Made by a program: the position numbers and the translations under genes
Source of the DNA: Thermoplasmata archaeon
GTDB lineage: Archaea; Thermoplasmatota; Thermoplasmata; Thermoplasmatales; Thermoplasmataceae
NCBI GenBank assembly: GCA_021800105.1
Contig: JAJYZI010000004.1
Span: 1 to 49,232, forward strand
Direction: 5' to 3'
Length of the DNA stretch: 49,232 bases
Notes under the pieces: generated by a model
What the model was told of the DNA's origin: nothing
The model's database searches: none
What the model saw: only the letters and a program-made list of their open reading frames with translations
Part shown: positions 26,806-48,209 of the stretch, one piece after another
Layout: every line of letters begins with the position of its first letter
Position numbering within the stretch: the stretch's first letter is position 1

Positions 26806-26880
26806 TGCTCCGACCGGGATTTGGACCCGGGTCGCCGGCTTGAAAGGCCGGTATGCTTGGCCGGACTACACTATCGGAGC
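26806..26880 (-). tRNA. tRNA-Glu (UUC)
   Basis: Reading the minus strand, a full cloverleaf forms: acceptor stem GCTCCGA/TCGGAGC with A discriminator, anticodon stem around loop CTTTCAA giving anticodon TTC (Glu), and T arm CCGGG-TCCAAAT-CCCGG. No CCA is encoded and no intron is seen. It closely resembles archaeal tRNA-Glu sequences. Confidence 0.96.
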
Positions 26881-26941: not shown

Positions 26942-27979
26942 TCAGGATATTGCATACCGGAGGATCGCGGAAATCCCCCCAAATCCCTTCAGTGTGATGC
27001 CTGGATCGCTATGGGAACTCAGTATGCTGATCTTAGCCCCCATGCGCATTGACTTTTCTATCAGATTCCTGTACTGCGGATCCCTGGCTTTGTCCTCGGA
27101 GATCAACAATTCTGCGACTGCACCAGAATCTATAGCTGTCTGCACCTGATCAAAACCGTAAGTGGCGAGACCGCCTGACTTCAGCGCCTTCATGAAGGAA
27201 TCGATTGAGCTCTGCTCCCTGGAAAGTCGGGTGCTTTCCAATACCTTTCTTGCCTCCTCGCTTCCCATGTACTCGTATATTGCCTGTTCGTCCGTTCTCG
27301 ATGAAGAGTGTGTTACGATGGGATGCTTGGAAAAATCTGCCTGTTCCTTAAGGTATGTTGCAATGTTATCCCGCGCAAAGCCAGGTCCCAGTATGGTTAT
27401 GGGTACTGATCCGGAAAGTAACGGCCTGATGCTGTTTGCGATCTGACGAAAGAAGGACTCCTCTGAATATGAGGAATCATAATATTTTCCACTTTTTCCG
27501 GAGTCAATATGCCCTGCGCTTTGGATGCCATATACCCTGAGCAGGTAAACATTGGCTTCATCATCATCCAACCCGATGAATATTCCAGTTGTCTTCGAAG
27601 ACTCCTCTGTGGATTCCTGAAGCATGTTTCGTTCCGACTGGTTCCAGGATTGCTTGAGAATCTTCAGAATGTCCCCCGGTTTTACTATAGCTGACTGGTG
27701 CTCTCCAATTATCTCATCGGGTCCAGAGCTTAAAAGACCAAGTATCCTGAGCCTGTTGGAGAAGGCCTGAAACTCGACCTTTTCGATCTGCAGTGTGACA
27801 GTGACAGTAACGCGCTCTGTCTCCTTCGATCTTGCCATGTCTTCCTGCTTCTCAGTTCTCCTCCTTACTGCAGTAAGGACAGAGTCACCTGCGTGGATGA
27901 TGTTCTGTAAATACCAAAGATCGTTTATTCCCTCGACCTGTACGTCGACTGTCTGCTCATCAATGTGGAGTATCTTCAT
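26942..27979 (-). CDS. pelA: pelota / Dom34 ribosome-rescue factor
   Basis: The 345-residue protein is archaeal pelota, an eRF1-like factor that, with aEF1A and ABCE1, splits ribosomes stalled on broken or stop-less mRNA. An Sm-like N-terminal domain (1-130) carries NDLWYLQNII and ERVTVTVTLQIEKVEF. The central domain has GPGFARDNI with no GGQ peptide-release motif. The C-terminal L7Ae-like domain has AVAELLISED. It is translationally coupled to the upstream Mut7-C RNase (ATGA overlap, 27979-27976). Confidence 0.96.
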   Translation of the reverse strand: MKILHIDEQTVDVQVEGINDLWYLQNIIHAGDSVLTAVRRRTEKQEDMARSKETERVTVTVTLQIEKVEFQAFSNRLRILGLLSSGPDEIIGEHQSAIVKPGDILKILKQSWNQSERNMLQESTEESSKTTGIFIGLDDDEANVYLLRVYGIQSAGHIDSGKSGKYYDSSYSEESFFRQIANSIRPLLSGSVPITILGPGFARDNIATYLKEQADFSKHPIVTHSSSRTDEQAIYEYMGSEEARKVLESTRLSREQSSIDSFMKALKSGGLATYGFDQVQTAIDSGAVAELLISEDKARDPQYRNLIEKSMRMGAKISILSSHSDPGITLKGFGGISAILRYAIS

Positions 27980-28407
27980 ATCTCTATGCCAAGCTCCCTA
28001 AGAAATTCAACTATCTTAATGAAGTGATCTCCTTCCCAGTAGTATTTGCCGCATTTTGAACAATAGAGCACGGTCGAGAACCTTTCAAGCACTCCTTCAG
28101 GAATCTTTCCTTTGAGACCGGCTGTATCTATCTTTTCAAGCTGATGATTGCATTCCGTGCATCTTGTGAATACAAGATTTTTATCGACAGTAAAAGTGGA
28201 TAAAAACTGCCTTATCTGTTCCCTATGATCCTGTGATGTAATGTAAAGGGACCTCTTATATCTGCTATGAAGTTCCTTGTCCCTCGTTAGCAGGAACAAA
28301 TTATCGGCTTTGCATTTCCCTATAATTTGAGTGTCACTGAGATTAGAGGAAGCATATTCAACGTCGAAACCCATAATTCGCAGCCACCTCGCGAGACGAC
28401 CAAGCAT
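27976..28407 (-). CDS. Mut7-C (PIN-like) RNase domain protein with zinc ribbon
   Basis: From ATG 28407 the protein is 143 residues and starts MLGRLARWLRIMGFD, the hallmark of the Mut7-C family of predicted PIN-fold RNases. It also has LLTRDKEL with the catalytic Asp (41-46) and a zinc ribbon from CTEC (83-86) and CSKC (116-119). Family members begin further upstream with a FLAD motif holding the first catalytic Asp. In this DNA, codons for KFLADH stand in frame right before the ATG, but no ATG, GTG or TTG precedes them down to a TGA at 28449-28447. The true start may therefore be non-standard. A GGAGGT purine run lies at 28443-28438. The stop overlaps pelota. Confidence 0.85.
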   Translation of the reverse strand: MLGRLARWLRIMGFDVEYASSNLSDTQIIGKCKADNLFLLTRDKELHSRYKRSLYITSQDHREQIRQFLSTFTVDKNLVFTRCTECNHQLEKIDTAGLKGKIPEGVLERFSTVLYCSKCGKYYWEGDHFIKIVEFLRELGIEI

Positions 28408-28423
28408 GTGATCCGCAAGGAAT

Positions 28424-28769
28424 TTACTTCTCTCCAGACCTCCACCTTCTGATCAGGTCGTATCCAAGCTCCATAAGGTCTAGAACCCTGGATGCTACAA
28501 AATTTACCATGTAGTCAAAGCTCCTCGGCCTTGTAATGTAACCCGGGCTCGCAGGAGCTAAGCCCTGCTGATATTTCCTTATCATCAAATGTACAGGTAG
28601 CTAGCTGCAGTAACTCGTCCCTAGTTGAAACGATTTCCTTCATGAAGACCTTTTTGGCTCCCCCGCTTACGACAACGTGTGTTTCGTAATTTTCAAGATT
28701 CCTGAGGAGAGTAATTGCAAGAAATGAACCGGAACCTCCGGTCACTCCAATGACGAATTTTTCCTTCAT
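28424..28769 (-). pseudogene. ubiX: broken UbiX/Pad1-type flavin prenyltransferase
   Basis: The gene opens normally at ATG 28769 with MKEKFVIGVTGGSGSFLA (FMN-binding start of UbiX) and continues to DDKEISAGLSS, the spot just before the usual SGSF motif. It then reads CEPGLHYKAEEL and stops at 28515. In another frame of the same strand the C-terminal UbiX sequence appears immediately: APASPGYITRPRSF, then VASRVLDLMELGYDLIRRW, stopping at 28424. About 75-80 central residues are missing (the PCS..T and RE.PL..HL.NM regions) and the frame changes at the join. The promoter-like box (28800-28791) is still there. An assembly deletion is the alternative. Confidence 0.85.
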
Positions 28770-45702: not shown

Positions 45703-46230
45703 TCAGAAAAATTCGGAAACAGACTTCGGGCTGTTAATCCTGCTCAGGCCGCTTTCATCCTCTATCATTATAGTGAGCCCAATTGCACTTTCCCTTACGT
45801 TTGACAACCTGTTTCGAATAACGTTGATTTTAGATTCGTTTTCCGGGTCTCCCATAAATAGGTCAAGGCGGTCATATATGGTGAGCAGGATTCCTTCGAC
45901 TGTCGTCAGATCGCCTCTGGAATCATCACCAGGAAGAATCTCCGCATCAAGCTCTGGTATTATTATAGATGCTTTCGGAGATCTGTATACAAGGACACTG
46001 AGGTCCTCGGGCTCGGTGATCCTGAGCGTAATTTTCTCCTTTTTTTCCTGCCCTTCTGAATATACCTGCGGGTTCTTGTACATGCAGTTGTGGCAGACAT
46101 ACGTGTTTATGACTATCCTTCCTTCATATGGTATTGTGGTCGTAAAGTAGATTAGGAATAGGTTTTTGCCGCAAACGGGGCATTTCATCGATGTTTCGAT
46201 TTCCGGTGGAGGTTCATAGTCTTCCGGCAT
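45703..46230 (-). CDS. ZPR1-type zinc finger protein
   Basis: The 175-residue protein has one zinc finger, CPVC (17-20) with CHNC about 30 residues later, followed by a ZPR1-type beta domain (KITLRITEPEDLSVLVYRSPKASIIIPELDAEI) and helical hairpin. Archaea carry single-module ZPR1 proteins. The eukaryal protein binds translation elongation factor eEF1A and assists its folding. The first 17 bases overlap the end of the IDI-2 gene, so it is coupled to isoprenoid genes. Confidence 0.88.
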   Translation of the reverse strand: MPEDYEPPPEIETSMKCPVCGKNLFLIYFTTTIPYEGRIVINTYVCHNCMYKNPQVYSEGQEKKEKITLRITEPEDLSVLVYRSPKASIIIPELDAEILPGDDSRGDLTTVEGILLTIYDRLDLFMGDPENESKINVIRNRLSNVRESAIGLTIMIEDESGLSRINSPKSVSEFF

Positions 46231-47284
46231 CGTAAGCTCCCATCCATGTTTTCAACGGATCAAAAATAATCCTTTTCGCTTTTCTCAGCTGTTCGATCTT
46301 AGAAGATCCTGTGAGGAACATTGTTATCTTAAGATCCCGGATAATCTGGTAAATAACGGCCTCAATCTGTTCGTATGAATCGTCTGCACCTTTGAGAAGA
46401 GATCTTGCGAAGCCTCCCATCGCTGCTCCAAGACTTAGTGCCTTGGCTAGATCCTGCCCATTCCTGAGTCCACCACTTCCAATTGTCGGTAGGATATCAT
46501 GACAATATTCTATTGAGGCTGGCGATGGGACACCCCAGTTCCAGAAAGTTTCCCCTGATGTCATCTTTTCACTATCGCCCGCATTTTTCGCCCTGTAATA
46601 TTCAATCGCAGCGAAGGATGTGCCTCCCAGTCCTCCAACATCTATAGCCCTGACGCCTGCGTCCTTGAGCTGCAAGCATGCCTCCCTGGAAAAACCGTTT
46701 CCTGTTTCCTTGGCGATGACGGGATAACTTCCAGCAACTTCAGAAAGCCTTTTCAAAATGCCCTTGGCATTGTGATCTCCTTCGGGTTGGACCATTTCCT
46801 GGAGAAAGTTGAAATGAACAATCAGGAAACTAGCATCTATCAGCTTGAACGCGTACTCGATATCAGCATCAGTGAAAGCTCCTTTTCCCTGCTTAACGAG
46901 TTGTGGAGCACCTATGTTAGCAAGTCTGACAGGCACCTTAAATTCATTGATCACGGAATAAGTCTCCGAGAGTCCGTGATCCTGGATGCATGCACGCATG
47001 CTTCCTACCCCCATCGGAATGTTAAACTTCTCAGCCGCCTTTGCAAGGTTCCGGTTTATTGTCTTTGCCCTGCTTGTTCCACCTGTCATTGATGAGATGA
47101 CCATAGGATGTGAGAACTTCTTACCAAGAAACCCAGCCTCGGTTGAAATTAAGTCATAATCGAAGTCAGGTACAGCCTGGTGTATCAGGCGTATATCATC
47201 CCAGTAGTTTCTCTCGGAGGTTACCTTCTCCTCCTCAGCTATCTTTATATGTTCAGTCTTGCGAGCCTCTATCTTTTCATCCAA
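46214..47284 (-). CDS. fni: isopentenyl-diphosphate isomerase, type 2
   Basis: The 356-residue FMN-dependent enzyme interconverts IPP and DMAPP for archaeal lipids. Family motifs are RKTEHI near the start, ISSMTGGT, the glycine-rich MGVGSMR, NIGAPQL, VIAKETGNG, VGGLGGTSF and GSGGLRNGQDLAKALSLGA. It begins with TTG 47284, immediately after the IPK stop, so these two consecutive late mevalonate-pathway steps are expressed together. Confidence 0.96.
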   Translation of the reverse strand: MDEKIEARKTEHIKIAEEEKVTSERNYWDDIRLIHQAVPDFDYDLISTEAGFLGKKFSHPMVISSMTGGTSRAKTINRNLAKAAEKFNIPMGVGSMRACIQDHGLSETYSVINEFKVPVRLANIGAPQLVKQGKGAFTDADIEYAFKLIDASFLIVHFNFLQEMVQPEGDHNAKGILKRLSEVAGSYPVIAKETGNGFSREACLQLKDAGVRAIDVGGLGGTSFAAIEYYRAKNAGDSEKMTSGETFWNWGVPSPASIEYCHDILPTIGSGGLRNGQDLAKALSLGAAMGGFARSLLKGADDSYEQIEAVIYQIIRDLKITMFLTGSSKIEQLRKAKRIIFDPLKTWMGAYDAGRL

Positions 47285-48022
47285 TTAAATCACCGTGCCG
47301 ATGAAATCTTTCTCCCCAATGTCATTAAGCCTTTCAGGTTTGTTACCGTTGACAACAACAACCTTTCCTGCATGCTTTCTTATCTTCAATATTTTCTCGT
47401 ACTTTGACTTCATGCCGCCAGTCACGTCATTCATGACCTGGCTAAACGCAATGTTCCTGTCAATGGATTTGAGTAGCTTAGCATCACTGACTGTCTTTGG
47501 GTCATTATCGTAGATTCCGTCAACATCGGTCATGAATATTACCAGATTTGGTTTGAATACTGCACTGAGAGCTACCAAAAGATCATCCGCCGAGATAATC
47601 TTTATCATTCCTGCGCGCAGAATAACATCACCCATGCCCAGTGGAGTGAACCCCAGAGACAAGTATTTTTTGAAATCAGTGAGGTCGGGAGACCCGTTTC
47701 GGTATATAGACTGGGTGGGAATACTGATGGGGGATAATCCTTCTTCAAGCATAATTCCCGCGATCCTGGTATTGAGATCAAGAACGTCTTTGTGAACTAT
47801 TGAGAAAGCATGCACATCCTCTTGCTTGAACTTCTTTGGGAAACCGCTTTTCTTGGCAATAATATGACCGAATGATCCTGCCCCGTGAGTCATTATAAGA
47901 TCTTCATTCAAAATGGAAAGTGTCTGAATGATTTTTTTGCAAGAGTCTTCCCTGAATCTCCTGTACACATTCTTGTCAGTTATCACACTGCCGCCGATCT
48001 TAACTAATATCAATACGAACAT
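47285..48022 (-). CDS. ipk: isopentenyl phosphate kinase
   Basis: The roughly 245-residue amino-acid-kinase-fold enzyme phosphorylates isopentenyl phosphate to IPP. Motifs are LVKIGGSVITDK at the N-terminus, MTHGAGSFGH with the catalytic His, FMTDVDGIYD and DVTGGMKSK. In Thermoplasmatales the mevalonate route goes through 3-phosphomevalonate and decarboxylation to isopentenyl phosphate, so IPK is essential there. ATG 48022 fits the family N-terminus. ATG 48037 adds five residues and is the alternative. First gene of the IPK-IDI2-ZPR1 operon. Confidence 0.95.
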   Translation of the reverse strand: MFVLILVKIGGSVITDKNVYRRFREDSCKKIIQTLSILNEDLIMTHGAGSFGHIIAKKSGFPKKFKQEDVHAFSIVHKDVLDLNTRIAGIMLEEGLSPISIPTQSIYRNGSPDLTDFKKYLSLGFTPLGMGDVILRAGMIKIISADDLLVALSAVFKPNLVIFMTDVDGIYDNDPKTVSDAKLLKSIDRNIAFSQVMNDVTGGMKSKYEKILKIRKHAGKVVVVNGNKPERLNDIGEKDFIGTVI

Positions 48023-48209
48023 AATGCATTTAGGCATTAACTTCTTTTCTTTAATTCAAAGTGGTTTAGTAGATGTACACATCAGGTTTGATACAGCAGG
48101 TTAAGTCCTATTTCCTGTTTTAGATATTCCAAGTTACTTGCCTTGATCGCTTTACTCAAAAGCAATCATCAGCACAGATTAGTTTTTGCCCACGTACATA
48201 AAATCATGA

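Follow-up and report, generated by a model that had tools for sequence, protein, structure and literature searches.

What does it mean that the gene for pelota is translationally coupled, in a Thermoplasmata archaeon, to a gene for a small Mut7-C domain protein? Pelota enters the A site of stalled ribosomes and splits them together with ABCE1, and to our knowledge it is absent from bacteria. In the 49,232-nucleotide stretch of DNA that we analyzed (contig JAJYZI010000004.1, called the window below), the initial annotation read the upstream gene, mut7C, as a Mut7-C/PIN-like RNase with a zinc ribbon and proposed that it cuts mRNA on pelota-bound ribosomes. A nuclease acting with archaeal pelota, if there is one, is not established in the literature that we examined, and our literature search found no publication joining Mut7-C and pelota.

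The product of pelA matches the pelota model TIGR00111 with 198.4 bits (E 1.9e-58), exceeding the equivalog threshold of 177.65, and the PDB entry that it matches best, 2qi2 (E 6.8e-77), carries the annotation of a pelota-related protein. An identity as aRF1 was rejected, as the aRF1 model gave only 57 bits. Judged by these matches, pelA in the window is a full-length pelota gene. The mut7C-pelA junction reads GAGATATGAAG, in which the pelota ATG at 27979-27977 overlaps the mut7C TGA at 27978-27976 by 4 bp, and the ATGA overlap claimed in the initial annotation is thus present as described (Table 1). Such a 4-bp overlap is ordinary, being found in 18 of the 43 loci that we scanned; in nearly all of the remaining loci, the nearest in-frame pelota start lies no more than about 35 bp from the Mut7-C stop. 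The tRNA gene directly downstream of pelA marks the end of the coding part of the mut7C-pelA unit.

Table 1. Features of the mut7C-pelA locus in the window, and loci with RibD_C upstream of mut7C
Feature	Position or loci	Strand	Basis
ubiX remnant (UbiX-type flavin prenyltransferase), internal deletion and frameshift	28427..28769	-	UbiX models and alignment
mut7C, stand-alone Mut7-C domain protein with zinc ribbon	27976..28437	-	PF01927; probable CTG start 28437-28435
ATGA overlap, mut7C stop/pelA start	27976..27979	-	sequence
pelota (pelA), mRNA surveillance/ribosome rescue factor, 345 aa	26942..27979	-	TIGR00111 match
tRNA-Glu(TTC), directly downstream of pelA	26806..26880	-	ARAGORN
RibD_C upstream of mut7C	L174, L178, L255, L256, L257, L260, L261, L264, L266, L268, L271, L272		

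PF01927 matches the mut7C product with 136.5 bits (curated cut-off 23.3; E 9.3e-40) over profile positions 2-145 of 146. The reading frame is open to about 28446 and closes at the TGA of the junction. Its first ATG, at 28407, lies two codons past the invariant Asp11, and the window sequence holds no in-frame ATG, GTG, or TTG between the upstream stop and Asp11. Each of the five genomes examined in the genus (the window, L021, L028, L029, and L171) has a CTG that follows the GGTGGAGGT stretch. Translation of mut7C probably starts at this CTG, which we prefer because a start at ATG 28407 would delete Asp11. Since the GGTGGAGGT stretch doubles as ubiX coding sequence, its conservation alone is no proof of the CTG start, and our case relies mostly on the need for Asp11 and less on the conserved stretch. 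Other members of the family (L017, L152, and L024) appear to have just ATT or ATA at this place. It is possible that mut7C uses near-cognate starts coupled to the upstream ubiX, both in the window (28437-28405, minus strand) and in its relatives. The 3′ end of the ubiX remnant overlaps the mut7C start. Its 84-residue ORF matches UbiX models across the N-terminal 70 residues only and, compared with the intact ubiX of genomes G002 and G003, the window copy misses a segment of more than 200 bp, either through a real deletion or through an assembly error.

We used PF01927 and TIGR00111 profile searches to locate both genes in 61 genomes of the window's order and 128 genomes of the phylum, Thermoplasmatota. 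Directly upstream of pelA and on the same strand, mut7C was found in 58 of the 61 order genomes carrying both genes (counted by hand). The pairing is therefore no accident of the window assembly, and an adjacency confined to this genome, which the initial annotation had named as a refutation, does not apply. The three order genomes in which the genes are not adjacent, G019 and G035 from one genus and G041 from another family, still keep both. Across 29 loci inspected over about 8 kb to either side, no pelA neighbor other than mut7C is shared between families (f1, f3, f4, and f5); ubiX upstream of mut7C is limited to the window's family, and the other flanking blocks are family-specific as well. 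Two of the 29 loci show no Mut7-C ORF in our neighborhood script, yet a Mut7-C match adjoins pelota in both genomes, and we take these gaps to be artefactual, caused by start codons or by ORFs that overlap. The pelota tree, drawn with a midpoint root and with the four out-of-order pelotas clustering at 100/100, fits a single gain of the pairing close to where the order begins, with two losses. Thus, the coupling that had been noted in one genome is real and order-wide, and it was kept across families f1 to f5 with hardly any breaks while the other neighbors were shuffled. This long retention hints at something beyond shared transcription, contrary to a plain co-expression view.

How surprising is such a pair? 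For a base rate, we compared 400 kb of genome G040 (family f5) with 800 kb of G027 (family f1), to which the locus of the pair in G027 was added, and found 20 of 66 tight same-strand pairs conserved between the two families. By Pfam, about half or slightly more of the 22 conserved pairs appear to share a complex or pathway: secretion ATPase with membrane proteins, cas genes, ATP synthase, lipoate ligase parts, an electron-transfer pair, and a kinase with an FMN-type isomerase. The others are housekeeping neighbors that share no obvious step, among them PdxT-GcvT, JAB-NAD kinase, FMN-type isomerase-ZPR1, and truB/cmk/EMC3/adk/secY. Given this mixed make-up, conserved coupling hints at a functional tie without proving one. 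Within the window itself, genes for a kinase, an FMN-type isomerase, and a ZPR1-like protein (45703-48037, minus strand; named by sequence resemblance) stand in apparently the same order as at L202:13968-16266 of family f5 (named by Pfam), and this set appears to be a conserved mixed-function operon.

Outside the order, the pairing was not found in any lineage that we sampled. In the rest of Thermoplasmatota, mut7C is next to pelA in none of the 61 genomes that carry both genes; most have them on separate contigs, so a few adjacencies could hide at contig ends. The nearest case is G107, where the two genes are convergent and about 4 kb apart. Likewise, none of 77 Mut7-C loci from two other phyla (flanks of about 1.5 to 5 kb; Thermoproteota and Asgard archaea lie outside this sample) has pelota nearby, and 80 named pelota loci, some on short contigs, show no clear Mut7-C neighbor, the sole signal being a partial, weak one at L134, about 7 kb from pelota. 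The conserved adjacency in distant lineages that the initial annotation had named beforehand as support was thus not borne out by any of these three samples. The two genes also differ in distribution. Mut7-C is missing from 39 of 97 good Thermoplasmatota genomes (∼40%), whereas pelota was found in 95 of the 97, and no Mut7-C was found in those Methanosarcina and Methanobrevibacter genomes of our sample from which pelota loci came. Sulfolobus acidocaldarius and Haloferax volcanii, by contrast, each carry a Mut7-C gene.

In other lineages, mut7C switches its operon partner. In 12 of 23 loci outside the order, spread over nine Thermoplasmatota families (Table 1), the gene immediately upstream, on the same strand, encodes a RibD_C reductase, and the two genes often overlap by 4 or 8 bp; two of these RibD_C members were confirmed by Pfam. 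This linkage to the riboflavin pathway spans more widely than the linkage to pelA. Endonuclease V follows mut7C directly on the same strand in five loci (L283, L288, L292, L297, and L189) and AMMECR1 stands beside it in three (L183, L185, and L186), with one member of each confirmed by Pfam. With names read from the sequences and not from profile results, HD-type proteins adjoin Mut7-C in 10 loci, PolX-like proteins with a PHP-type domain in seven, and AmmeMemoRadiSam-like proteins in five (L298, L302, L312, L313, and L318). Two different members of the AmmeMemoRadiSam set thereby adjoin Mut7-C in separate phyla, a recurrent link. The association of PolX with Mut7-C in Halobacteria has already been published (PMC9226535); it is likewise a lineage-specific operon partnership, but the partner there is a DNA polymerase and no translation factor. 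For the bacterial fusions of a ubiquitin-like domain to Mut7-C, Iyer et al. saw no conserved context (PMC1779556).

We then asked what the Mut7-C protein itself could do. In an alignment of 17 sequences, the window included, drawn from order members, other Thermoplasmatota, Thermococci, Hadarchaea, and Methanoperedens-type and Alkanophagales archaea, D11, D37, and D55 as well as C95, C98, C128, and C131 are invariant. The Mut7-C identity and the zinc ribbon (C-x2-C ... C-x2-C) of the initial annotation hold for the window protein; its RNase label is annotation only, and in PMC11347159 the domain is described as RNA-binding, with a TOPRIM-like fold. Resemblance to PIN domains is weak, both for the Mut7-C profile against the PIN structure 1o4w (E 0.014) and for hhalign against PIN proteins of the studied genomes (probability 8%), where D37 and D55 align to the PIN D...TxD motif. 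A single-sequence structure model reached a pLDDT of 62, too poor for a fold search, and no relatives were found in our viral scan and phage search.

Iyer et al. made the case that Mut7-C has catalytic residues of the PIN type (PMC1779556). Busetto et al. solved the structure of the worm MUT7-C domain, which shows a TOPRIM-like fold and contributes to RNA binding; the isolated domain, from worm and from human, served as a negative control in their RNase assays, and they stated that the role of archaeal and bacterial stand-alone Mut7-C is unknown (PMC11347159). RNA is recovered along with a mycobacterial homolog on purification, and it could not be determined whether this homolog is an active RNase (PMC7052010). 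Nuclease activity is not reported for any Mut7-C in the literature that we examined. Our profile alignment places no Asp of the worm domain at D37 or D55, and the inactivity of the worm domain is therefore a poor guide to archaeal Mut7-C. From its sequence, archaeal Mut7-C is a putative RNA-acting protein, probably RNA-binding and possibly a metal-dependent nuclease; the last activity is plausible.

Comparison with known systems places the window protein closest to the stand-alone prokaryotic Mut7-C proteins (PF01927; for example Thermococcus A0A097QWN3, PMC11347159), which it resembles in domain extent, Asp triad, and Cys4 zinc ribbon; in the sampled Thermococci these have other neighbors, whereas the window gene is coupled to pelA. 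The C-terminal MUT7-C of metazoan MUT-7/EXD3 (PDB 8q66) shows detectable profile homology (E 5.6e-6) but is fused to an exonuclease, carries insertions, and lacks Asp at the two positions noted above. The bacterial fusions (Mycobacterium tuberculosis Rv0579 and Thermotoga maritima TM_0779; PMC1779556, PMC7052010) share Mut7-C and the zinc ribbon and differ in their N-terminal ubiquitin-like domain, which the window protein lacks. The SMR-type no-go-decay nucleases Cue2 and NONU-1 have an unrelated domain, and any likeness lies in the proposed analogous role only. Neither the window genome (70% completeness) nor four archaeal control genomes gave an SMR-domain match, so that an enzyme doing this job in archaea would probably belong to a different type.

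With these data, we weighed several explanations for the coupling. The proposal of the initial annotation is that Mut7-C is an endonuclease that cleaves mRNA on stalled ribosomes to which pelota is bound and so serves as the dedicated no-go-decay nuclease of the order. The order-wide coupling, the missing SMR match, the invariant Asp triad, and the argued PIN-type residues (PMC1779556) all fit it. However, the adjacency is absent outside the order, pelota is common without Mut7-C, Mut7-C has equally tight and unrelated partners elsewhere, three order genomes keep both genes apart, and the literature examined reports no such activity; we consider the proposal improbable. The enzyme that it implies, a pelota-dependent Asp-triad zinc-ribbon nuclease unrelated to the eukaryotic SMR nucleases, is just as doubtful to us, and Mut7-C as the mRNA-cutting enzyme of pelota is a testable, weakly supported idea. 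Pelota's own N-terminal domain could instead be the archaeal no-go-decay nuclease, with Mut7-C irrelevant to cutting, although later yeast work reportedly challenged the Dom34 nuclease claim directly. This activity was proposed from work on Thermoplasma acidophilum and yeast, with a conserved acidic patch, as reported in PMC2613156, and one Asp of this region, D40 in the numbering of the first sequence, does not vary among six aligned pelotas, the window's included. As later yeast work credits cutting to other enzymes (Cue2, PMC9841427), we regard this alternative as very unlikely.

A looser tie has more in its favor: Mut7-C may bind or degrade RNA freed when pelota and ABCE1 split stalled ribosomes, with no cutting on the ribosome. 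Members of both protein families work on RNA or on the ribosome, mut7C is kept as the only shared neighbor of pelA, and RNA binding is documented for the domain (PMC11347159) and for the mycobacterial homolog (PMC7052010), but partner switching and the absence of the pair elsewhere weigh against such a tie, which we judge rather unlikely. At the other extreme, unrelated housekeeping genes could be hitch-hiking, held together only as their overlap makes separation costly. The 20 of 66 conserved tight pairs, several of unrelated function (JAB-NAD kinase, PdxT-GcvT, and FMN-type isomerase-ZPR1), are consistent with this; the pair has very rarely been broken across families f1 to f5, which argues against it, as does the share of conserved pairs that belong to one complex or pathway, and we judge it unlikely. 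These assessments are not exclusive, since the best explanation includes co-expression with or without the looser RNA quality-control link.

Taken together, we lean towards an order-specific coupled operon, gained once, that co-expresses an RNA-acting Mut7-C with pelota. In this scenario, mut7C and pelA would have been joined once near the base of this Thermoplasmatota order and kept in nearly all members. The mut7C product would be a small RNA-acting protein made of an Asp-triad domain, PIN- or TOPRIM-like, and a zinc ribbon. Most likely, the coupling would set the co-expression and dosage of two housekeeping proteins of RNA and translation; the looser tie, for example Mut7-C disposing of RNA left once ribosomes are split, is plausible. 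Both RNA binding or cleavage by archaeal Mut7-C and its joint action with pelota are what we infer. The partner switching of mut7C is a warning against inferring function from the Mut7-C neighborhood of one lineage. For the order itself, the conserved coupled pair offers a specific and cheap test for an archaeal pelota-linked nuclease.
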